Assembly (NCBI RefSeq): GCF_900088825.1
Contig: NZ_LT592170.1
Location: 1,104,852 to 1,168,851 of the forward strand
Origin: Thiomonas delicata
GTDB taxonomy: Bacteria; Pseudomonadota; Gammaproteobacteria; Burkholderiales; Burkholderiaceae_C
DNA: 64,000 nucleotides
Reading direction: 5' to 3'
Shown here piece after piece: positions 11,383-51,290 of the stretch (positions are counted from its first letter, which is position 1; every line of letters begins with the position of its first letter). A program made the position numbers and the translations under genes. The notes under the pieces were generated by a model. It was not told the origin of the DNA. It saw nothing but the letters and a program-made list of their open reading frames with translations, and did no database searches.

Positions 11383-12400
<1,018 letters not shown>

Positions 12401-12414
<14 letters not shown>

Positions 12415-13618
12415 TGGAATCAAACGACCGGGCGTACTCCACCACCAAACCTAGCCCCGCAAACAGGGCACCGCACAGCACCACGGCCAGCCAGCCGCCC
12501 ACGTCCCAGGCCAGACTGGCGATCAACGAACCGATGGCGCCACCACCAAAGTACGCGCTCATGTACACCGCATTGATGCGGCTGCGGGCTTCACCAGGTA
12601 AGGCGTGAATCGTGGCGAGATTGGCAATGTGCGCGCCTTGGCAGCCTGCATCGATGGCGAGGCAGCCGATGATCAGCCCCCAGACACCCTGCATGGCGAA
12701 CGCTGCCGCCCCCCATGAAAGCAGCATCGTCACCAGTGCCGCCAGCCGCACCCGGCGCGCACCGCCCGGGCGATCGGACCAGCGCCCCGCGAATGCGGCG
12801 GAGGATGCCCCGGCGATGCCCAGCAAACCGAACGCGCCGACTACCGCCGGGCCATAGCCATAGGCCGGGCCTTGCAATACAGGGGTCAGCCCGACCCAGA
12901 ACACGCTGAAACTGCCGAAGAACAGCGCGCCCGTCAACGCCGCGAAACGCAGTTCGCGATGCCGGACGAACTGACCCAGCGTCGAGGTCATCAGCGCGAC
13001 ATATCCCTGCGTTTCTTCCACCTGCGCGGGCAGCCGTGGCAGCACGCGCCACAGCATCATCCACGTCGCGGCGCTTGAGGCGGCACCGAAGGCGAACGCC
13101 CACCGCCAGTTCGCCCACTGTGCAATACCGCCTGCAATCACCCGTCCACCGAGAATGCCGATCATCAGTCCGCTCATCACAATGCCAATCGCTTTGCCGC
13201 GCGAAGGAGTCGGCGTGACATGCGCCACCAACGGAATGATCTGCTGAATGATCGAGGACAACAGCCCGACGGCCAACATCGCGAAGGCCAGCCAGAGCAC
13301 GGAAGGTGCGGCAGCGGCGGCCAGCAAGGCCAAAGGCAGCAGCGCGCCCAGACCCAAAATGAGACGATGCCGGGCATGCCGGTCGCCCAAGGGACCCAGG
13401 AACAGCAAACCACCGGCGTATCCGATCTGCACCGCCGACGGCACCACGCCGACCTCCGCGATGCTTGCATGAAACGTCGCCGCGAACTGCTGCAACAAGG
13501 GCTGCGCGTAGTAAAGATTGGCGACCGTGACCGCGCAGGCCAGGGCCATGAACAGGGCGAAGTGCTTTGACAGCCCACGATGGGTGTCCGGGGCTGGAGC
13601 TGAGTGCGCTGTGATCAC
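12401..13618 (-). CDS. MFS transporter
   Basis: From GTG 13618, with GAGG eight bases upstream, it encodes 405 residues; a further-upstream ATG at 13702 would add a hydrophilic leader that overlaps the preceding gene's end. Twelve membrane segments are visible, starting FALFMALACAVTVANLYYAQPLLQQFA, a common opening of small-molecule efflux MFS proteins. GPLGDRHARHRLILGLG matches the loop 2-3 motif. It lies 68 bp behind the carboxymuconolactone decarboxylase-like gene on the same strand and may be co-transcribed with it. Confidence 0.85.
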
Positions 13619-40952: not shown

Positions 40953-41377
40953 GATCAATTCTAATGTTCGCCAGAACCAGCGTGCAAAAGCATAACGAAG
41001 CGGCGTTTTTTCATGTCCGAGTAAATGAACTGAACCGCCCCGGGTTTGCGGAGGCCCGTTGGTTTGAGTCAGAACGAGCTGGTCTGAGGCCAAGCGGGTT
41101 TGCTTGACTATTTGGCCATTGTCTCTCTTTTTTAGCGGTGCGCAGGTGCCGCCGGAGGCAACTGGTTGAGCCATGGGTTTTCATGGTTCCCCCTTTTTTT
41201 GTTTCAGCATGACTCCAGCACCGAACTTCGCTGGACTACGCCACAGCCCGTTGTGGCAGGTTTATCAATAGCTTACGTGAGTTCATCCTATGCCGGTGCT
41301 TTCCGAAACTTGACCCGGCTTCCGTCCGCTTGGCTCCTAACAGGCTCCTGGAAACCGCGTCTTTCCGAGGAGTCATC
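40953..41377. other. Gap with cassette boundary and integrase upstream region
   Basis: GCATAACGA at 40990 repeats the core box found at 40428. Toward the integrase lies a GCCACA...TGTGGC hairpin (about 41240-41257). An attachment site for the integrase is expected just upstream of 41378, but no repeat partner was found in this window. Confidence 0.35.
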
Positions 41378-42577
41378 ATGGCTAAGATCAAACTCACCAA
41401 GTCCGCAGTCGATGCGGCAAAACCCCAGGCGCAGCCCATCGAGCTGCGTGACACGCTTGTTCCCGGCTTCCTGTGCAAGGTTACACCGGCCGGTCGCAAG
41501 GTCTTCATGCTCCAGTACCGGACGAATGCCGGCGAACGGCGCAAGCCGGCGCTGGGCATGTACGGAGAACTGACCGTCGAACAGGCCCGCTCGCTGGCGC
41601 AGAACTGGCTGGCTGAGGTTCGCCGAGGCGGCGATCCTGGTGCCGCCAAGACCGAGGCGCGCAAGGCACCCACTGTTGCGGAGTTGTGCAAGAAATTCAT
41701 GGAGGACTACTCCAAGAAGCGCAACAAGGCCAGCACCCAGGTCGGCTATCAAGGCGTCATCGATCGCTGCATCATCCCGCTGCTGGGCCGCAAGAAGGTT
41801 CACGACGTGAAGCGGCCTGACGTTGCCGGATTGATGGAAAAACTTTCGTACAAGCAGACCGAGGCGAACAAGGCGTTCAGCATCCTGCGCAAGATGTTCA
41901 ACTTGGCCGAGGTGTGGGGCTATCGGCCTGACGGCACGAATCCTTGCCGCCATGTCCCGATGTTCCCTGCAGGCAAGTCCACCCACCTCATCAGTGACGA
42001 GGACATGGGCAAGCTGTTCCGGCAGCTCGACAAGATCGAGACCGAAGGGTTGGAGAACTACGTCATCCCTCTGGCGATCCGTCTGCAATTCGAGTTTGCC
42101 GGCCGCCGCTCCGAAATCGTCACGCTCCAATGGGAATGGGTCGATCTGGAGAACCGGAGGGTGGTCTGGCCTGACAGCAAGACAGGTGGCATGTCCAAGC
42201 CTTTGAGTGAGGAAGCCTACCGGCTGCTTTCGACGGCGCCGAGGCAGAAAGGCAATCCCTACGTGCTGCCGTCGCCACGCCATCCGGGGCAGCACCTGAC
42301 GACGGGCGAGTATTACGGCGGCTGGTGCCGTGCGCTCAAGGCGGCGGGCGCGACGCATGTGGGTACGCACGGCATCCGCCATCGCTCGGCGACCGACATT
42401 GCCAATTCGGGTATCCCGGTCAAGGTCGGCATGGCGCTGACGGCGCACAAGACCGTGGTGATGTTCATGCGCTATGTCCATACCGAGGACGATCCGATAC
42501 GCAAGGCGGCCGAACTGGTGGCGAATCGTCGCAAGACAATCACCGGCGAGCAGCGCCCTGCGGAGGTGGTCGCATGA
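41378..42577 (+). CDS. int: Tyrosine recombinase (ICE integrase)
   Basis: The product has 399 residues from ATG 41378, with CGAGGAG ahead. Residues 1-90 form the DUF4102 arm domain (LTKSAVDAAKPQAQPIELRDTLVPGFLCKVTPAGRKVFMLQY, in family order); catalytic residues are Arg243 (AGRRSE), His331/Arg334 (HGIRH), His357 (AHKT) and Tyr366 (FMRYVHT). It integrates and excises a genomic island, as in Tn4371-type ICEs, where int is the left-most gene. Its stop overlaps the DUF1016 gene start (ATGA). Confidence 0.93.
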   Translation: MAKIKLTKSAVDAAKPQAQPIELRDTLVPGFLCKVTPAGRKVFMLQYRTNAGERRKPALGMYGELTVEQARSLAQNWLAEVRRGGDPGAAKTEARKAPTVAELCKKFMEDYSKKRNKASTQVGYQGVIDRCIIPLLGRKKVHDVKRPDVAGLMEKLSYKQTEANKAFSILRKMFNLAEVWGYRPDGTNPCRHVPMFPAGKSTHLISDEDMGKLFRQLDKIETEGLENYVIPLAIRLQFEFAGRRSEIVTLQWEWVDLENRRVVWPDSKTGGMSKPLSEEAYRLLSTAPRQKGNPYVLPSPRHPGQHLTTGEYYGGWCRALKAAGATHVGTHGIRHRSATDIANSGIPVKVGMALTAHKTVVMFMRYVHTEDDPIRKAAELVANRRKTITGEQRPAEVVA

Positions 42578-43743
42578 GCAAGGGAACGCTTTCCACGACG
42601 ACCGCGAAAGGCGCCGCCGTCCCAGCCGGCTATGCCGGCATCCACAGCGGCATCGTCGAATTGCTCGATGCCGCGCGCCAGGCGGCAGCACGCAGCGTCA
42701 ATGCGTTGATGACGGCGAGCTATTGGGAAATTGGCCGCCGCATCGTGGAAGCCGAGCAGCAGGGCAAGCGCCGTGCGGGGTACGGCGAGCAGTTGATCGA
42801 ACGGCTGTCCAGTGACCTGACTGGGCGGTTCGGGCGGGGCTTCGGTGTCAACAACCTGGAGAACATGCGGCGCTTCTTTCTCGCGTATCCCCGTTCGGTG
42901 ATTTCCCAGACACTGTCTGGGAAATTGCGAAACGAAGTGGCTTCTGAGAAATCCCAGGCAGTGTCTGGGAAATTGAGCCTGTCCGATCTGGCGCACGCCT
43001 TCACGCTGCCGTGGTCGGCCTACGTGCGGCTGCTGTCAGTCAAGGACGACCATGCCCGCCAGTTCTATGAAGCCGAAGCCCTGCGCGGTGGCTGGAGCGT
43101 GCGCCAGCTCGACCGGCAGATCGGCAGCCAGTTCTACGAACGCACGGCGCTGTCGAAGAACAAGACGGCGATGCTGGTCAAAGGCGCCGTGCCGAAGCCG
43201 GAAGATGCCGTCACGCCCGACGACGCGATCAAAGACCCGTATGTGCTGGAATTTCTGGACCTCAAGGACGAGTATTCGGAGTCCGATCTTGAACAGGCCC
43301 TGATCCATCGGCTGCAAGACTTCCTGCTCGAACTCGGTGAGGGCTTCACATTTGTTGGACGACAGCGGCGGTTGCGCATCGACCAGACCTGGTATCGGGT
43401 CGATCTGCTGTTCTTCCATCGGCGGCTGCGCTGCCTCGTCATCATTGACTTGAAGCTCGGTGCCCTGACGCATGCCGATGTGGGCCAGATGCACTTGTAC
43501 TGCAACTATGCGAAGGAGCACTGGACGTTTCACGACGAGAACCCGCCCGTGGGTCTGATCCTGTGCGCGGACAAGGGTCACGCTTTGGCGCGGTATGCGT
43601 TGGAAGGTTTGCCCAGCAAGGTCATGGCAGCAAACTATCGAACCGTGTTGCCGGATGCCGAACTGCTGCAAAAGGAATTGGAGAACACGCGGCGTCTGCT
43701 GGAATCTCACGCAACGATTCGTCCCAAGACTCGCAAGCGATAA
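42574..43743 (+). CDS. DUF1016 (YhcG) PD-(D/E)xK nuclease
   Basis: The product has 389 residues from ATG 42574. The N-terminal DUF1016 part (about 20-180) has ALMTASYWEIGRRIVEAEQQGK and LSWSAYVRLL-like helices; the C-terminal nuclease has YRVDLLFFHRRLRCLVIIDLKLG, giving Asp and the D-x-K of a PD-(D/E)xK core. YhcG proteins are associated with defence islands and ICE boundaries. It is coupled to int by four bases. A palindromic repeat within the N-terminal half adds a TLSGK-containing insert of variable length. Confidence 0.88.
   Translation: MSKGTLSTTTAKGAAVPAGYAGIHSGIVELLDAARQAAARSVNALMTASYWEIGRRIVEAEQQGKRRAGYGEQLIERLSSDLTGRFGRGFGVNNLENMRRFFLAYPRSVISQTLSGKLRNEVASEKSQAVSGKLSLSDLAHAFTLPWSAYVRLLSVKDDHARQFYEAEALRGGWSVRQLDRQIGSQFYERTALSKNKTAMLVKGAVPKPEDAVTPDDAIKDPYVLEFLDLKDEYSESDLEQALIHRLQDFLLELGEGFTFVGRQRRLRIDQTWYRVDLLFFHRRLRCLVIIDLKLGALTHADVGQMHLYCNYAKEHWTFHDENPPVGLILCADKGHALARYALEGLPSKVMAANYRTVLPDAELLQKELENTRRLLESHATIRPKTRKR
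42901..42975. repeat. Palindromic direct repeat inside the DUF1016 gene
   Basis: A near-perfect palindrome with 12-bp arms (ATTTCCCAGACA) and one central base spans 42901-42925. A second, partly decayed copy (CCCAGGCAGTGTCTGGG) starts 49 bp later. The reading frame is kept (SQTLSGK / SQAVSGK). Confidence 0.6.
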
Positions 43744-44101
43744 CGGTGCGTCCCGGCGTCCCGGCGTCCCGGCGTCCCGGCGTGCCGCCGTCGCGCTGCG
43801 CATCGAGCCTCGCTGCGCGAGTCTCGCCTCATTCGGGCTTTCATCGTTCCCTCGCTCTGCTCGGCTGACGCCTCCGGTCCTTGAGGGCCTGCGCGCTCCG
43901 CTTGCCCATCCGTGCCTTCGTTGGAGGTGGGGTGGGCGGTCTTGCTGTTCCCTATCACCGTACCACGGCGTTCTCGCCGTCAAGGGCTGCGCGTGCCTTG
44001 CACGCTTGCGGCCGTGGCCGTCCATGACCCTGTGACAGCTTGCGCTGCGCCGTGCTGGCGCCGGTTCCGGGCAATTCCGCCCGAGCAACCGGAGCACGAT
44101 C

Positions 44102-44608
44102 ATGTCGCAACTCTCTCTCGCTTTCGATTCCTCGCTGCTGGTGCGTGACAGCCAGGGGCGCTACATGCTGGCCACCGCCGATCAGATCCTGGAGGCGGCC
44201 CGCCAGGTCATCGACCAGAAGATCCCGCGCGGTGCGCTGTTCACATCGCCGACGCTGGTCAAGGACTACCTGCGCACCAAGCTGGCCGGCTTCGAGTATG
44301 AAGTCTTCGCGGCACTGTTCCTCGACAGCCAGCATCGGCTGATCGAGTACGCCGAGCTGTTCCGTGGCACCATCGACTCGGCGGCGGTGTACCCGCGCGA
44401 AGTCGTGAAGACGGCACTGCGGTTCAACGCAGCGGCAGTGATCTTCTCGCACAACCATCCGAGCGGGAACCCCGAGCCAAGCCAGGCCGACAGACAGATA
44501 ACCCAGCGGCTCAAGGAGGCGCTGGCATTGGTGGACGTGCGCACACTGGATCACATCGTCGTCGGTGGCGAGTCCACAGAGTCCTTCGCCGAACGGGGGC
44601 TGTTGTGA
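44102..44608 (+). CDS. radC: RadC/JAMM-domain protein (copy 1)
   Basis: The product has 168 residues from ATG 44102. The MPN+ motif SHNHPSGNPEPSQAD gives HxH-x7-S-x2-D, a metal-binding JAMM site; the Glu lies in YEVFAALFLD. RadC-like proteins are common in ICEs, usually beside DUF932 and antirestriction genes; their biochemical role is not settled. It differs from copy 2 (50253) at about 25 residues, so the duplication is not recent. A terminator follows. Confidence 0.9.
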   Translation: MSQLSLAFDSSLLVRDSQGRYMLATADQILEAARQVIDQKIPRGALFTSPTLVKDYLRTKLAGFEYEVFAALFLDSQHRLIEYAELFRGTIDSAAVYPREVVKTALRFNAAAVIFSHNHPSGNPEPSQADRQITQRLKEALALVDVRTLDHIVVGGESTESFAERGLL

Positions 44609-44612
44609 TCCC

Positions 44613-44635
44613 GGGGGTTTCGGCCCCCTTTTTGC
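44613..44635 (+). terminator. Rho-independent terminator after radC copy 1
   Basis: GGGGG/CCCCC stem with a short TTTCGG loop, followed by TTTTT, directly after the stop. Confidence 0.8.
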
Positions 44636-44800
44636 TGCGCCTTATGTCGAACTCTCCGGCCCCATGAGCCTTCGCGCCTGCGGCGCTGCGCGCTTCGCTT
44701 GCACGGGGTCTGCGCCATCTACGGCCGTTGCCAGAACTTCTATCTTCCCTCGCTCATCATCTGATCCGCGACTGTAGTCCGCATCGGCGCGCCTTGACGC

Positions 44801-44840
44801 TTCGGTGCGTTTTGGTGCATTTCGGTGTAAGCTGGTGATC
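44801..44840. promoter_or_regulatory. Four 10-bp GGTG repeats upstream of the RHH gene
   Basis: TTCGGTGCGT, TTTGGTGCAT, TTCGGTGTAA and GCTGGTGATC follow each other with GGTG exactly every 10 bp, 29 bp upstream of ATG 44869. One helical turn per unit fits cooperative binding by a ribbon-helix-helix protein. Confidence 0.6.
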
Positions 44841-44868
44841 GAGTTTCATATTGGTTGGTCCGACGCTT

Positions 44869-45060
44869 ATGCCTCAATCGCAACCGCTCAAGCGCTTCAC
44901 AGTCTCCCTTGATGCTGAGGACTACGAGGCTTTGCGCAAGCTGGCTGAAGCGCAACGTCCGCCGTTGCCGCTCCAGTACGTTGTGCGCTTGGCCATCCGG
45001 CGCTTTCTGGATCAGCCTGAAGGTACGGTTCTTCGGCCCATTGAGGACGATACACGGTGA
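44869..45060 (+). CDS. Ribbon-helix-helix (CopG/Arc-like) regulator
   Basis: The product has 63 residues from ATG 44869. LKRFTVSLDAEDYEALRKLAEAQRPPL and LQYVVRLAIRRFLD form the beta-strand and two helices of an RHH DNA-binding dimer. It precedes the two large ATPase genes by 53 bp and follows a four-unit 10-bp repeat, so it probably represses its own operon. It could alternatively be an orphan antitoxin-type protein. Confidence 0.7.
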   Translation: MPQSQPLKRFTVSLDAEDYEALRKLAEAQRPPLPLQYVVRLAIRRFLDQPEGTVLRPIEDDTR

Positions 45061-45113
45061 AGCGAACAATGAGATTGGCTATGCCATAAAGGACGCAATG
45101 CAGCGAGGGGAGT

Positions 45114-47732
45114 ATGACGGTCCTACAAGAAATACTTGAATGGTCTCAAGGCCGTCCAGCGTGGCAACGCGACGCGCTGCGTCGGCTCGTACTCAATGGA
45201 GAACTCTTCGACGATGACATCCGCGCACTTACCGAGGTTTGCAAGAGTGCGCATGGCCTCGCTGAGGAGCAGGAAATCGCGCACTTCGCCAAGGAGCATG
45301 TGTCCGACACAACAGCGGGTGCTGCCCCTGTTTCTCTGGTATCAATCTTCCATCATCGCGGTGTGAATGCGCTGGCCGAGGACCAGACACTCAAGTTCGC
45401 ACCCGGTCTCACCGTGGTTTATGGTGATAACGGCGCAGGCAAGACGGGCTATATCCGAATCCTCAAGGGTGCCTGCCGGGCGCGGGGGCAAGAGAAAATC
45501 CTGGGCAATGTTGTCTCCGGCACAGCACCGCTCGCGCCGGTGGTTGCGATCAAGTACAAGATCGGAGCTGAGCCTGAACCACGGGAATGGACCGGAACCG
45601 GTGAGGATGAGTTCGTTTCGCGTGTGAGCGTATTCGATACACAGTGCGCTTCCGTCTACCTGACCGAAAAAACCGATGTTGCCTTCCGGCCCTTCGGCTT
45701 GGACCTGTTCGACAAGCTCGTGAAGGCGTGTAAGGCCGTTCGCGCAGAACTCGAAAGCGAACAGCGCGCTCTTGCGTCAAACGCTCTCACCGCTGTTCAG
45801 GCACAGGTCCCCGAAGGTACAGCAATTGCGAAGTTTCTAACGAACATTAGCTCCCTTACCAAGCTGGACGCCGTAGAGGCACTCGCGCGTCTCTCCCCGG
45901 AGGACGAGGCTCGGCTTGCGCTTCTGGAGAAGTCGCTGCTCGACTTGCAGGCCAATGATCCCGAAAAGCTGATCCGGCAACTCACCCTGCGCGCGGGTCG
46001 GGTTCAGACACTGGCCCGGCACCTCAAGGAGGTGGAAGCGGCGCTTTCGGTGGAGGCCGTGGCTGCCGTGTTCGATGCACGGACAGAAGGCCGCCGCAAG
46101 AGCGAGGAAGCAAAACGGCTGCGGGAGGCAACATTTCCCGAAGGGGTGCTGCCTGGAACCGGCACCGATCCCTGGATCGCGCTTTGGGAAGCGGCGCGTC
46201 AGTTCTCGCAGGAGTTAGCCTATCCAGACAAGGCATATCCGGTCGTAAAAGACGGCGCTCATTGCGTCCTGTGCCAACAGGATCTCGATCACGCAGCATC
46301 CCATAGGCTCAGCCAATTTGAAGCGTTCGTGGCTTCGACAACGGAACGTGAACTCCGGCAGATCAGGGAGAAGTTCGCACGTTTGCGAAAGGGCTTCACT
46401 GATCTCAGGACGACAACCGAAGCCGTTGACGAAGCGCTCAAGGAAATCCGCATCGAGCATGAGGCCGTTGCGGACGCAATAGCCGCAGCGCTTTCAGCCA
46501 ACGAGAACCGCCGTAGGACTGTCACCGCAGCCATCGCCGAAGACAAGGACCTGGCCCCCGAGTGTCCCGCCCTCGTGTCGGCCTCTCGTGACGCCGAGGC
46601 GCTGGCCGGGGAAATCGAGGCCCGGATCAAGACGCTGCGCACCAGCGCTACCGATGAAACCCGCAAGCGCATGACCACCGAAGTACAGGAGTTGCGTGCC
46701 CGTAAAATTCTGGCAGCACATCAACAGACTGTTCTTGATGATATCGAGCGTCGGAAGAAGTACGCCGCTTATGGGCTGTGCATTGACGAAACCAAGACAC
46801 AGGTGATTACGCAGAAGAGCACTGCTGTTACGAAGGCTGTCGTATCGCAGAAGCTCAAGCAGAGTTTTAAAGATGAACTGGTCAATCTGTCTTTCGGTCA
46901 CGTCGAGGTCGAGTTAAAGGAACTTGGCGGTGCGGACGGCGTTTTCTACCACAAGCTTGCTCTTACGCGCGCACCTGGCGTTGACTTGCCAAAAGTTGTG
47001 AGCGAGGGCGAGCAGCGCTGCCTATCCATCGCCGCATTCTTTGCGGAACTCAGCACTGCTGATGACCTCTCTGGCATCGTGTTCGATGATCCTGTGTCCT
47101 CGCTTGATTACCAATGGCGTCAGGGTGTGGCTCGGCGCTTGGTGTTGGAGGCCAACACCCGGCAGGTTATCGTTTTCACCCACGATGTCGTCTTCCTGCT
47201 GCTCCTAAAGCAATTCGCGGAAGAGCTGGGCGTCGATCAGTTTGACCAACACGTCCGGTTCCTTTCCAAGGGTGCAGGCGTGTGTGCGGAAGAGCTTCCG
47301 TGGGTTGCGCTGCCGGTCAAGAAAAAGATCGGCTACCTGAAAAGCGGCTGGCAAGCCGCCGACAAGCTTTCTCGTGACGGTCATCAGGACGCCTACGAGA
47401 AAGACGCCAAGTATCTTTACGGTTTGCTGCGGGAAGCATGGGAGCGCGCCCTCGAAGAAGTCCTATTGGGCGGCGTGGTCGAACGCTATAGGCCGAGTGT
47501 TCAGACACAACAAGTTTCTCAGATCGCCGACATCACTCCCGAGGACTGCAAGACCGTCGAGGCGGCTATGACGAAATGCTCGAAATGGCTGCCTGGCCAT
47601 GATCAAGCCGCGGCGGCTCGTGCGCCGGTACCCGGTCCGGCAGAACTCAAGGCCGACATCGAAGCTTTGGAAAACTGGGTAACGGCGATACGTAAGCGCC
47701 GCAAAAAACCCATTGAGACCGCATCCGCATGA
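45114..47732 (+). CDS. SMC/RloC-like AAA ATPase with zinc-hook motif
   Basis: The product has 872 residues. Walker A is GDNGAGKT (104-111). A coiled-coil region (about 205-580) is split by CVLC (384-387), a possible zinc hook as in Rad50/RloC. The ABC signature-like SEGEQ lies at 630-634, Walker B IVFDDPVSSLD at 655-665 and the H-loop FTHD at 688-691. The C-terminal 120 residues (YLYGLLREAWERALEEVLL... SKWLPGHD) could be an effector or binding domain; an RloC-like anticodon nuclease is conceivable but unproven. The next gene overlaps by four bases, so both products probably act together. Confidence 0.88.
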   Translation: MTVLQEILEWSQGRPAWQRDALRRLVLNGELFDDDIRALTEVCKSAHGLAEEQEIAHFAKEHVSDTTAGAAPVSLVSIFHHRGVNALAEDQTLKFAPGLTVVYGDNGAGKTGYIRILKGACRARGQEKILGNVVSGTAPLAPVVAIKYKIGAEPEPREWTGTGEDEFVSRVSVFDTQCASVYLTEKTDVAFRPFGLDLFDKLVKACKAVRAELESEQRALASNALTAVQAQVPEGTAIAKFLTNISSLTKLDAVEALARLSPEDEARLALLEKSLLDLQANDPEKLIRQLTLRAGRVQTLARHLKEVEAALSVEAVAAVFDARTEGRRKSEEAKRLREATFPEGVLPGTGTDPWIALWEAARQFSQELAYPDKAYPVVKDGAHCVLCQQDLDHAASHRLSQFEAFVASTTERELRQIREKFARLRKGFTDLRTTTEAVDEALKEIRIEHEAVADAIAAALSANENRRRTVTAAIAEDKDLAPECPALVSASRDAEALAGEIEARIKTLRTSATDETRKRMTTEVQELRARKILAAHQQTVLDDIERRKKYAAYGLCIDETKTQVITQKSTAVTKAVVSQKLKQSFKDELVNLSFGHVEVELKELGGADGVFYHKLALTRAPGVDLPKVVSEGEQRCLSIAAFFAELSTADDLSGIVFDDPVSSLDYQWRQGVARRLVLEANTRQVIVFTHDVVFLLLLKQFAEELGVDQFDQHVRFLSKGAGVCAEELPWVALPVKKKIGYLKSGWQAADKLSRDGHQDAYEKDAKYLYGLLREAWERALEEVLLGGVVERYRPSVQTQQVSQIADITPEDCKTVEAAMTKCSKWLPGHDQAAAARAPVPGPAELKADIEALENWVTAIRKRRKKPIETASA

Positions 47733-49732
47733 GCAACGTAAATATCAAACGCGCCGTCGAGAATATTCGAGCGAACACGACCGTCTACACGCCCGTTGTC
47801 GAGATGATCGTTAACGCCATTCAGGCAATTGACGAGGCTGGCCGCAAAGATGGGAAAGTCCAGGTCCGCACGCAACGGAACGCTCAGGTCGAGCTGGATG
47901 GAAGCTTACCGGAGGTCACAGGCTTCGACATCGAGGATAACGGTATCGGCTTTAATGACGCGCACCGCAACTCCTTCGACACGCTCTACACCGACCTCAA
48001 GATTGCCGAAGGCGGTAAGGGATTCGGCCGTTTCACTGGACTTAAATATTTCGAGGACCTGCACGTCAAGAGTATCTATCGCGATGGTGCCGTCCTTAAA
48101 GCACGCAGCTTCTCAATGGGCAAGGAACACGAGATTATCGTGCGCGAGAAGGTCACACCAAGCGACAAGCAGGACACTGGCACTGTGGTCACTCTGGCGC
48201 CTCTGAAGACGGGACGCGCCTTCGACAAGAAGCTTTCGACCATCGCCCGCAGCCTCGTGGAGCGGCTGCTGCCGTATTTCATCACGCAGGATTACGTCTG
48301 CCCCGACATTGTTCTTTCGGAGCAGGACGGGAGTAGCGCGATCCGCTTGAACGATTTCGTGAGCAACGAATTGTCTGCCGTCATCCGGGAGATCGGCATT
48401 GATCGCAAGACCTTCACGCTCAAGGCTTCCGATACGGAAGAGGAGTTCCTGGTCCGCGTGTTTAAACTCTACTCCCCGCGCAACCAGAAAAGCCGAATCA
48501 GCCTTGTCGCGCATAAGCGGGAAGTCTCAGGGTCTGCGATCCACAAATACATCCCAGAGTTCGTAGACGAGTTCTTAGAGAAAGATCGAAACGGTGAAGT
48601 AGACAGCACACGCAATTACATCATCAAAGCTTACGTATTCGGACCCTATCTCGACCGGAATGTTTCGCTGGAGCGAGGCGGGTTTGAGTTTCAAATGGAC
48701 AGCGACCTGATTCTCGGAATTGGGCAAACCCAGATTGAGCAGGACGCTGCCACGATCGCCCGTGAGGCGATGGGTGCAGATATCACGTTCCGGCAGGAAA
48801 AGAAGAAAGAGCGTGTGCAGTCCTACGTCGATGAAGAAGCGCCGTGGCACAAGGCCATCCTGGAAAAGATCGACCTGAGCGGGATGCCCTATAACCCAAG
48901 CAATGAAGAGATCGAAACGCGGTTGCAGAAGGAGAAGTTTGCGCAGGAGATCGCCATCAAGCGCGATGTAGCGAAGCTGATGGCCGAGACAAATTTCGAG
49001 AATGTGCAGGACAGCGTGATCGAGATCGTCAATAAAATCTCCGGCACCAGCAAGAATGATCTGATTCACTACATCGCATTACGCCGAAAAATCCTAGACA
49101 TCTTCGGCAAGAGCCTTGAAACAGATGAATCTGGAACGTATTCCTCCGAAGGTGTGGTCCACGACATCATCTTTCCACGCAAGGGTGACACCGATATCAC
49201 GTCCTTTCACGATCACAATCTCTGGATCGTAGACGAAAGGCTGAATTTCACCACCTACGTTTCCTCTGACCTCCCCCTCAACGGTGGGAATACTGATCGT
49301 CCTGACCTGTTGGTCTACAACAAGCGGGTACTGTTCCGAGGCGATAACGAAGCGAGCAACCCGATTACGATCTTCGAGTTCAAGAAGCCTCAGCGTGACG
49401 ACTTCGTGAACCCGTCCTCCCGAGAGGACCCGGTCCAGCAGATCGTGCGCTACGTGAACGACATCCGGGACGGCAAGTACAAGACACCCGAAGGCCGCAA
49501 GATACTTGTTGCTGAGAACACACCGTTCTACGGCTACATTGTGTGCGATCTGACGGCCAAGGTAGAAACCTGGCTTGAGCGCGAGAAGAACTTTACGCCC
49601 ATGCCCGACAGGCTCGGCTGGTTCCAGTGGATGGGCAACATCAATCTCTATGTTGAGGTCATAAGCTGGGACAAGGTGCTGAAAGACGCGAAGATGCGCA
49701 GTCAGATATTCTTTCAGAAACTTGGAATCTAG
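47729..49732 (+). CDS. GHKL (MORC-like) ATPase fused to PD-(D/E)xK nuclease
   Basis: The product has 667 residues, with an ATGA overlap to the ATPase gene. N-terminal GHKL boxes: E25-x3-N29 (EMIVNAIQA), DIEDNGIGF (67-75) and GGKGFGRFTGLKYF (95-108). A middle domain follows (about 200-470). The C-terminus holds a nuclease-like core: Asp526 in RPDLLVY, Glu550-x-Lys552 in FEFKKP, and a following QQIVRYV Gln. Prokaryotic MORC-type GHKL-nuclease proteins were predicted to belong to restriction systems. Cytosolic, no membrane helix. Together with the SMC-like partner it forms the core of the candidate system. Confidence 0.85.
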   Translation: MSNVNIKRAVENIRANTTVYTPVVEMIVNAIQAIDEAGRKDGKVQVRTQRNAQVELDGSLPEVTGFDIEDNGIGFNDAHRNSFDTLYTDLKIAEGGKGFGRFTGLKYFEDLHVKSIYRDGAVLKARSFSMGKEHEIIVREKVTPSDKQDTGTVVTLAPLKTGRAFDKKLSTIARSLVERLLPYFITQDYVCPDIVLSEQDGSSAIRLNDFVSNELSAVIREIGIDRKTFTLKASDTEEEFLVRVFKLYSPRNQKSRISLVAHKREVSGSAIHKYIPEFVDEFLEKDRNGEVDSTRNYIIKAYVFGPYLDRNVSLERGGFEFQMDSDLILGIGQTQIEQDAATIAREAMGADITFRQEKKKERVQSYVDEEAPWHKAILEKIDLSGMPYNPSNEEIETRLQKEKFAQEIAIKRDVAKLMAETNFENVQDSVIEIVNKISGTSKNDLIHYIALRRKILDIFGKSLETDESGTYSSEGVVHDIIFPRKGDTDITSFHDHNLWIVDERLNFTTYVSSDLPLNGGNTDRPDLLVYNKRVLFRGDNEASNPITIFEFKKPQRDDFVNPSSREDPVQQIVRYVNDIRDGKYKTPEGRKILVAENTPFYGYIVCDLTAKVETWLEREKNFTPMPDRLGWFQWMGNINLYVEVISWDKVLKDAKMRSQIFFQKLGI

Positions 49733-50252
49733 TGCGGCCGTCATGTGCGCGCTGAATTGCGCTGGCTCGATAAGTTCGAACGTGAGCCGGAAGAAGCATC
49801 ATCGTTCGGCATTTTTTTTGCGCCAGCAAGAATTCAGGGCAAATCGAATTGCTGGATCTGAACAGGTCGGGCATCCACGTCGCCGATTGCCTGAGCAACG
49901 CAAGACAGATAACAAGCAGTCCTGATCGTGGTATCTCTGCGTCCCGGCGTTCCGCCGTCGGGCTCGCGGGCTGCGCCCCGCGCTTCGTACCGAATCGCGG
50001 CCATCCGGCTTTGATCCCTGACGCCTCCGGCCCTTGAGGGCCTGCGCGCTCCGCTTGCCCATCCGTGCCTTCGTGGGAAGTGGGATGGGCGGTCTTGCTG
50101 TTTCCCTTCACCGTACCACGGCGTTCTCGCCGTCAAGGGCTGCGCGTGCCTGCACGCTTGCGGCCGCGGCCGTCTGCGACCCCTGACTGCTTGCGCTGCG
50201 CCGTGCTGGCGCCGGTTCCGGGCAATTCCGCCCGTGCAACCGGAGCACGATC

Positions 50253-50759
50253 ATGTCGCAACTTTCTCTCGCTATTGATTCCTCACTGCTGGTGCGTGAC
50301 GCGCAGGGGCGCTATCTGCCGGCTTCCACTGACCAGATACTGGCTGCCGCGCGCCAGGCCATCGACCATAAGATGCAGCGTGGAGCGTCTTTCACTGCAC
50401 CGGCAACGGTCAAGGACTACCTGCGCACCAAGCTGGCCGGCTTCGAGCACGAAGTGTTCGCAGTGCTGTTCCTCGACAGTCAGCATCGACTGATCGAATA
50501 CGTCGAAATGTTCCATGGCACGATCGACAGTGCATCAGTTCATCCGCGCGAAGTGGTCAAAGAGGCGCTGCGGTGCAATGCGGCGGCTGTGATTTTCTCG
50601 CACAACCATCCGAGCGGGAATCCCGAGCCGAGCCAGGCCGACAGGCAAATAACCCAGCGGCTCAAGGATGCGCTGGCACTGGTGGACGTGCGCACGCTGG
50701 ATCACATCGTTGTCGGCGGCGAGTCCACAGAGTCCTTCGCCGAACGGGGGCTGCTTTAA
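50253..50759 (+). CDS. radC: RadC/JAMM-domain protein (copy 2)
   Basis: The product has 168 residues, the same length as copy 1 and with an unchanged SHNHPSGNPEPSQAD metal motif. Most differences lie in the first 100 residues; the last 60 are nearly identical, so gene conversion may act on the 3' half. This copy sits in the usual Tn4371-like position ahead of DUF932 and is probably the resident one. Confidence 0.9.
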   Translation: MSQLSLAIDSSLLVRDAQGRYLPASTDQILAAARQAIDHKMQRGASFTAPATVKDYLRTKLAGFEHEVFAVLFLDSQHRLIEYVEMFHGTIDSASVHPREVVKEALRCNAAAVIFSHNHPSGNPEPSQADRQITQRLKDALALVDVRTLDHIVVGGESTESFAERGLL

Positions 50760-50763
50760 CCAA

Positions 50764-50784
50764 GGGGGCTTCGGCCCCTTTTTT
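50764..50784 (+). terminator. Rho-independent terminator after radC copy 2
   Basis: GGGGC-TTCG-GCCCC stem-loop followed by six T, directly after the stop. Confidence 0.85.
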
Positions 50785-51033
50785 GCTGCGACTGGTGTTG
50801 AGTCCTTCGGCTCTCACGGGCCTGCGCACTGCGCTTGCACTCCAGGGGAACGGCTTGCAGCCGATCCCCGCCGCGCGTGGCTTGGCGCCCCTGAAAAGCT
50901 GCCGAACAGGTTGCACCTGATCGGCCTTCGCGCCTGCGGCGCTGCGCGCTTCGCTTGCGCGGGGTCAGCGCCATCTGCGGCCGTTGCCACAACCGCCGTC
51001 TTCCCTCGCTCATCACCTCATCCGCGACTGTAG

Positions 51034-51290
51034 CCCGCGCCCGTGTGCCGTCAAGGCGCGCCGGGCCGTGTCCTCGCTGCGCTGCGGGCCGCACCAACCC
51101 GTCGCTTGTTTCCTTGACGGCACCCGTTCGCGCGCTCCTGACCGTCGCGGGCGATGAACTCAGGAAAGACGGTGGCAACGAGGCCGGCCCAGGTCTCCGC
51201 GCCGACCCCACCGGAAAGCCGAAAGGCGGGCTCCGAATCTAGGAATCCGGTGGGGTTTCAACAGCAAACCTTTTGTCAGGAGTAAGCACC
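51034..51290. repeat. Long-range inverted repeat downstream of DR2
   Basis: GTGCCGTCAAGG (51045-51056) and its exact complement (51112-51123) stand 55 bp apart. The 14-mer CGTCAAGGCGCGCC at 51049-51062 also occurs, inverted, at 44786-44799 just beyond DR1. No gene is seen before the DUF932 start. Confidence 0.6.

Follow-up and report, generated by a model that had tools for sequence, protein, structure and literature searches.

In a 64,000-nucleotide stretch of the Thiomonas delicata genome (contig NZ_LT592170.1, positions 1,104,852-1,168,851, forward strand; hereafter the window, within which coordinates are counted unless another locus is named) we identify a mobile element carrying two overlapping genes. 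The first (gene 1) codes for an RloC-type ABC ATPase with a zinc hook and a predicted C-terminal HEPN/anticodon nuclease domain, and the second (gene 2) for a paraMORC3-type GHKL ATPase with a C-terminal PD-(D/E)XK nuclease domain. The pair is best read as a new combination of known parts. With about even confidence we interpret it as a translationally coupled two-enzyme defense cassette, uniting a break-sensing RloC-type tRNase with a paraMORC3 DNase. It had originally been predicted from the DNA as a candidate new defense system: the pair does appear to be undescribed and is probably defensive, but both of its components belong to kinds already named (RloC/PDC-S06 and paraMORC3). In the open-licence literature, where papers naming both kinds exist, we found no description of an RloC-paraMORC3 pair. 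A figure legend of the DefensePredictor study (PMC13092281) names HATPase among the predicted systems, and an overlap of that system with gene 2 is possible.

The RloC-like protein encoded by gene 1

Gene 1 is an intact open reading frame (ORF; 45114-47732, + strand) coding for 872 amino acids. As originally predicted, it displays a Walker A motif (residues 104-111; 45423-45446, + strand), a central CVLC zinc-hook motif (residues 384-387; 46263-46274, + strand) and an ABC signature, SEGE (residues 630-633), followed by the Walker B motif DDPVSSLD (residues 658-665), the last two together occupying 47001-47108 on the + strand. G104, N106, G109 and K110 of Walker A, C384 and C387 of the hook, S630, E631 and E633 of the signature, the two aspartates of Walker B (658-659) and H690 are all invariant in two alignments, of 13 and 15 sequences, which include the window protein and its two near copies. 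The C-terminal region adds a predicted RNase triad, R773-X3-E777-X51-H829 (47430-47600, + strand), all three residues of which are invariant in the same alignments.

These features correspond to RloC as defined in the cited part of Davidov and Kaufmann (PMC2610378): an ABC ATPase interrupted by a coiled-coil insertion that bears a CX2C motif, a C-terminal Arg-X3-Glu-X36-52-His and a length of 658-897 residues. Gene 1 shows the split ATPase, the central CX2C, the R-X3-E-X36-52-H signature and, with its 872 residues, a length within that range. It differs from the RloC described there in belonging to the PDC-S06 branch and in being joined by an overlap to a gene for a GHKL nuclease; moreover, the serine that often precedes the histidine lies six positions ahead of H829 in this protein, at S823. 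By these motifs gene 1 is RloC-like; its probable activity is that of an anticodon nuclease responding to DNA breaks. RloC is reported to disable translation through tRNA cleavage (PMC2610378, PMC3874168), and the Acinetobacter version to be switched on by double-strand breaks and to cut tRNA-Glu/Gln (PMC3874168).

Profile searches point in the same direction. In a PADLOC scan covering the pair, radC and the DUF1016 gene, gene 1 matched the PDC-S06 models with up to 764.8 bits and LmuB with only 53 bits; its Pfam match to AAA_13 scored 59.5 bits. The novelty originally proposed had been set against a match to an already named system: gene 1 does have one, PDC-S06, at 765 bits, but that is a library candidate without a mechanism, here paired with gene 2, and no description of the pair was found in the open-licence literature. 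In hhalign comparisons gene 1 aligned from the hook to the C-terminus with an RloC-like set of six proteins (E 5.7e-22, probability 99.4; 16% identity over aligned columns), and with a PrrC-like set of five proteins (E 3.2e-8), where R773/E777 fall on R296/E300 and the alignment stops before the histidine. Both sets were chosen from 18 AAA_13 loci, and 'RloC-like' and 'PrrC-like' are our labels, given by size, hook and motif, with no named RloC among the compared proteins; since these were picked partly by motif, the invariance of the triad inside the two sets is no independent proof. The comparisons suggest that at least the branch of PDC-S06 examined here is RloC-like.

The structure model of gene 1 (mean pLDDT 83.8, pTM 0.54) has long helices between the two halves of the ATPase motif and an all-helical C-terminal domain, in which residues 828-835, around H829, have a pLDDT below 50. 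A sequence search of the PDB retrieved mainly Rad50, AriA and other ABC heads.

The paraMORC3-type protein encoded by gene 2

Gene 2 is likewise intact (47729-49732, + strand, 667 amino acids) and shares with gene 1 the bases ATGA at 47729-47732 on the + strand, in agreement with the four-base overlap and the protein lengths first reported. Our 70-sequence alignment also confirms its active sites as originally described: the GHKL-box residues E25, N29, D70, G72, G74, G98, G100 and R101 are invariant in all 70 sequences, as are E474, D526, E550 and K552 of the nuclease domain (E474, D526, E550-x-K552, Q571; 49148-49729, + strand), with Q571 nearly so. In the structure model (mean pLDDT 87.5) the nuclease domain shows the helix-strand order of a PD-(D/E)XK core. 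Foldseek retrieved Topo VI-B, Hsp90, MLH1, MORC4 and SMCHD1, the model matching GHKL ATPases with a transducer region over at least 400 columns. A sequence search of the PDB gave no relative beyond a histidine kinase at E 0.12, and no PADLOC model matched better than E 0.015.

This architecture is that of paraMORC3, described in the cited part of Iyer 2008 (PMC2292703) as a GHKL domain with an S5 domain and a restriction-endonuclease-fold (RE-fold) domain with E-D-ExK, a subset of which stands alone. Gene 2 possesses intact GHKL boxes, then an S5-like domain and a C-terminal E-D-ExK. A comparable GHKL ATPase with an RE-fold nuclease bearing E-D-ExK, likened here by description only, is VcSduA ('Shedu type I-D', 2025), which is reported to protect against phage while acting alone and to require E27 of the ATPase and K557 of the nuclease; its authors placed it in Shedu because of its DUF4263 (PMC12137116). 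Unlike VcSduA as reported there, gene 2 is preceded by RloC and has no match to DUF4263 (SduA_C, PF14082), which was not detected in nine gene-2 family members (E up to 1) or in five viral members (E up to 0.5). The hhalign match of the gene-2 nuclease core to five Shedu proteins is borderline (probability 45.8, E 2e-4), with the D and ExK in register. Because DUF4263 was not found and the Shedu profile match is borderline, we file gene 2, on its domain architecture, as a paraMORC3 (GHKL plus E-D-ExK nuclease) and set a plain Shedu assignment aside, though gene 2 may belong to Shedu. A GHKL protein with a partial SduA_C (L198) was considered and set aside: it gave no significant BLASTP match, and its profile match lies in the GHKL part only.

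Distribution, transfer and selection of the pair

We examined 88 gene-2 loci, comprising the best 80 of 515 relatives (591 pattern matches) and eight of 56 plasmid records. RloC stands beside gene 2 in five of them: the window's own element in Eoetvoesiella caeni (L012), a Halopseudomonas locus (L013), a gammaproteobacterial metagenome-assembled genome (MAG; L017) and two Paraburkholderia loci (L005, L061). All five intact RloC genes near gene 2 are directly upstream on the same strand, and the first three have the identical four-base overlap. The cassette DNA is 89% identical in Halopseudomonas (over 44689-50838) and 93% identical in the MAG (44686-49891), with both frames intact, and the ratio of nonsynonymous to synonymous substitution (dN/dS) among the three copies is 0.10-0.13 for gene 1 and 0.04-0.06 for gene 2. 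This identity together with the low dN/dS indicates that both genes are maintained and travel together: both are under purifying selection, and the pair moves between genera as a unit.

In a quick tree of gene 2 with 76 rows, which leaves out L012 (the same element as the window) and partial genes, the RloC label accounts for two changes, both forced by starred branches. The window, Halopseudomonas and MAG sequences form a clade with support 98, whose sisters have as partner either a type I gene or none that was identified. On this tree, RloC directly upstream of gene 2 appears to have arisen at least twice, in two separate lineages.

Conservation of the pair by neighborhood search, on which the original prediction had made its case depend, is nevertheless weak: five of 88 gene-2 loci, and no clear gene 2 in a hidden Markov model scan of 32 RloC loci, where one 15-bit match near L161 was judged unrelated. 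Searches of 19 stretches surrounding relatives of gene 1, drawn from 17 genomes or plasmids and including four short contig pieces, found no gene 2, nor did those of 15 viral gene-1 loci, and a gene-1-type RloC was not found in 43 viral gene-2 loci; the viral scan returned no relative with gene 1 alone and 15 with the alignment. Plasmid relatives number 267 records for gene 1 and 56 for gene 2, and two records are common to the 40 listed of each, AP024959 (genes adjacent) and CP019439 (about 21 kb apart); near-identical cassette DNA was not found in plasmids, where a 35-base piece alone recurs, in four records. A class sample of 369 genomes, searched at E 0.001 and with the window's own genome counted, contains gene 2 in two and gene 1 in 20, about half of the latter being short or weak matches. 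Judged by gene content, neither gene needs the other across genomes, and 'recurrent combination' describes the pair better than 'established system'.

Two matches to the gene-1 profile, an SbcC-like one on the minus strand of L076 (24.5 bits) and one in L155 (E 0.001), were discounted as unrelated. In a Bradyrhizobium locus (L040) an RloC remnant consisting of the ATPase head and hook only (11479-12447 of that locus) lies 474 bases behind paraMORC3 and is counted outside the five. The gene-1 relative in L156, 65% identical, adjoins conjugation-like genes.

Other partners of gene 2

The upstream side is intact in 82 of the 88 gene-2 loci, the other six being set aside. Directly upstream of gene 2 there is a restriction-modification (R-M) gene in 23, RloC in five and an unclassified gene in 22, while 32 are without a same-strand ORF of at least 130 amino acids within 250 bases. 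R-M genes make up 23 of the 28 classified genes in this position, the classes being drawn from Pfam scans of representatives, clustering and record annotation rather than from scans of every gene. An exact four-base overlap of the upstream gene with gene 2 is seen in 18 of the 82 loci, with RloC (3), Eco57I-like type IIG (4), T5orf172 (7), type I methylase/specificity (2) and type ISP (2) partners. The recurrence of the same exact overlap with several unrelated partners suggests that the coupling matters, and the presence of the gene-2 family behind them speaks for an effector module that restriction-type immunity can reuse.

One of these arrangements, an MmeI-type methylase, a DEAD helicase, a T5orf172 (GIY-YIG) protein and paraMORC3, is conserved in this order mostly in alphaproteobacteria (L032, L042, L052-L055, L060, L064, L066, with clusters in L067 too), with the four-base overlap in seven loci; it resembles a type of R-M system equipped with nucleases of its own. 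On a Vibrio fluvialis plasmid (L231, 1-4950) a methylase, a specificity subunit, an annotated Shedu nuclease and paraMORC3 follow one another, the last two overlapping by four bases. In two further loci paraMORC3 lies near a large gene, which in L038 has a DNA polymerase A domain and stands beside DUF2800 and Enc34-like ssDNA-binding genes; L028 was assigned to the same arrangement by clustering, and both are prophage-like replication modules.

Proposed mechanism and competing explanations

In the coupled cassette that we favor, gene 2, as a GHKL clamp that dimerizes and bears a PD-(D/E)XK nuclease, would recognize and cut invading DNA. Gene 1 would sense DNA ends via its Rad50-like ATPase and hook, whereupon its predicted C-terminal HEPN domain would cleave tRNA anticodons, so that translation would halt where cutting has begun but the infection persists. 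The breaks made by gene 2 could themselves be the signal for gene 1, and the product of a small ribbon-helix-helix (RHH) gene upstream may hold expression of the operon low via phased GGTG repeats. If true, this would amount to a two-layer immunity, in which DNA is cut first and translation is arrested second. The complete RloC signature with its profile support counts for this interpretation, as do the retention of the cassette in Halopseudomonas and the MAG, the repeated origin of the upstream position and the ATGA overlap.

A precedent for coupling a tRNase with a DNA cutter is PrrC, which is described as disabling translation by tRNA cleavage under the control of a restriction enzyme (PMC3506569). 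Like gene 1, PrrC of the EcoprrI type I R-M system is a tRNase of the same superfamily beside a DNA-cutting partner, with the same two-layer logic; unlike gene 1, it is half the size, has no hook and is silenced by the type I enzyme, whereas the partner here is a paraMORC3. A type I R-M system with PrrC was rejected for this locus, linked hsd genes not being found in the window: Pfam scans gave no methylase among the pair and its neighbors, and N6_Mtase/HSDR_N had no match inside the window, all of the genome's matches lying outside it, the nearest about 270 kb away. RloC is also seldom linked to R-M, eight out of 72 lying in R-M loci of type I or III according to PMC2610378, and its discoverers asked, in a passage of PMC3874168, whether it teams up with an R-M protein in trans. 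A more specific form of the coupled cassette, which we put forward tentatively, is that a portable paraMORC3 DNase behind RloC serves as its dedicated non-R-M DNase partner, the breaks that it makes in invading DNA triggering translational shut-off. A natural operon that couples RloC to a DNase offers a direct way to ask how RloC is used in nature and whether it works with a DNA-cutting partner.

Several observations weigh against the coupled cassette. The Acinetobacter RloC is reported to be activated without any R-M protein (PMC3874168), which implies that RloC needs no partner, and type I R-M genes elsewhere in the genome could act on RloC in trans. As many as 83 of the 88 gene-2 loci are without such an RloC, the Paraburkholderia pairs are separated by a 135-base gap with no overlap, and the nearest relatives of gene 1, the one in L156 and a 75% identical fragment in L159, stand without gene 2. 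Against the RloC-like set, the R/E columns are displaced by four residues, equal to a single helical turn, and H829 has no aligned counterpart, which makes the register of the triad uncertain, and Foldseek with the whole gene-1 model gave only Rad50/SMC-type proteins among the best 50 matches listed.

The serious rival, almost as likely as the coupled cassette, is that two autonomous single-gene defenses are stacked in one cargo operon, the overlap merely sharing a promoter. PDC-S06, which we take to be the name of a single-gene candidate, would fit such stacking, and so would the failure to find gene 2 around the gene-1 relatives and in the viral gene-1 loci, the 32 gene-2 loci without a same-strand upstream ORF, and a sibling element (L242) with other cargo between radC and DUF932. 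VcSduA, too, is reported to work alone (PMC12137116). Set against these are the preservation of the ATGA overlap in three cassette copies that have diverged, the co-transfer of the genes, a gene order that arose independently at least twice and the exact overlaps of gene 2 with several other partners.

In our assessment it is improbable that gene 1 lacks RNase activity and acts instead, after the manner of Lamassu or Wadjet, as an SMC-like protein that senses or loads DNA and passes it on to the GHKL nuclease. This would accord with the fold matches of gene 1 to Rad50/SMC and, less strongly, to JetABC and Lamassu, and with its 53 bits against LmuB, and a Lamassu/Wadjet system shares with the pair an SMC-like ATPase and a nuclease partner. 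Yet R773, E777 and H829 are invariant and lie in a helical C-terminal domain of a kind that Rad50 is described as lacking (PMC2610378), and full-length relatives of gene 1 stand without gene 2. The nuclease is also of a different architecture, and Lamassu/Wadjet was rejected given the weak fold matches, the 53 bits for LmuB against 765 for PDC-S06 and the lack of an LmuA/LmuC match in the PADLOC scan of the pair, radC and the DUF1016 gene. The label 'SMC-like ATPase' originally given to gene 1 is apt insofar as the protein is ABC/SMC-like, but with the RloC signature present it hides a likely tRNase rather than DNA-loader function.

Least probable of all, and very unlikely, is an element-maintenance or abortive module (toxin plus keeper) rather than phage defense: the integrative element does carry a ParB-domain gene, RHH genes are often part of toxin-antitoxin modules, and WonA/WonB are described as a case of a toxic nuclease that can be under the control of an ABC ATPase, but both families are linked to restriction or phage in the literature cited (PMC12137116, PMC2292703, PMC2610378) and the classified genes directly upstream of gene 2 are predominantly R-M genes.

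The upstream region and the mobile element

The RHH gene that the original prediction had placed beside the pair is present at 44851-45060 on the + strand (69 codons from TTG, with ATG at 44869 as an alternative start), its product matching Pfam RHH_1 at E 1.2e-5 and a PHROG Arc-like repressor at E 4e-4. The protein is 87% identical in Halopseudomonas and 91% in the MAG; with tblastn at 1e-3, the remaining examined gene-2 loci gave matches only in L001 and L012 (the same element). It is a probable autoregulator of the operon. Four GGTG boxes with an exact ten-base period lie 5' of it (44804-44837, + strand) and constitute a candidate operator: this phased pattern, picked after viewing the sequence, has one match in the window and none in 100 shuffles. 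The block is nearly unchanged in Halopseudomonas and the MAG, although the sequence preceding it diverges. The original prediction did not include the phased repeat, the R-X3-E...H at the C-terminus of gene 1, the assignment of gene 2 to paraMORC3 or the second radC 3' of the pair.

The mobile element with radC and a DUF1016 nuclease, as first described, is borne out by Pfam, and an integrase is present. This tyrosine integrase (41330-42577, + strand) is followed by the DUF1016/YhcG PD-(D/E)XK nuclease (PADLOC PDC-S02; 42325-43743, + strand, its true start probably downstream of 42325), which stays beside the integrase in Halopseudomonas and the MAG and is a second defense candidate of the element. 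Two radC copies with RadC domains, 85.7% identical, form a direct repeat on the + strand, one upstream of the pair (43865-44675; coding sequence 44102-44608) and one downstream (50018-50827; coding sequence 50253-50759); the upstream copy is missing at the corresponding place in Halopseudomonas and the MAG. Two 115-base repeats, 90% identical, flank the cassette (44668-44782 and 50924-51038); the 35-base piece seen in four plasmid records belongs to them.

The left end of the element is placed at about 41190 because the alignments with E. caeni, Halopseudomonas and the MAG all begin at 41190-41195. From 41190 to 64000 the window is 99.98-100% identical in E. caeni, and E. caeni sequence left of the element was not found in the window's genome, in a search without a positive control. 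In four genomes a T-run immediately precedes the left end, and in three of these genomes a GC-rich inverted repeat, recognized by eye, stands before the T-run, as if the integrase targets intrinsic terminators. In E. caeni, three stretches adjoining sibling elements (L240-L242) contained neither gene of the pair. Between radC and DUF932, one of these (L242, 4602-11694) carries genes for two TIR proteins of the ThsB type as well as a patatin-like protein bearing a SLOG-type domain, which are probable defense cargo.

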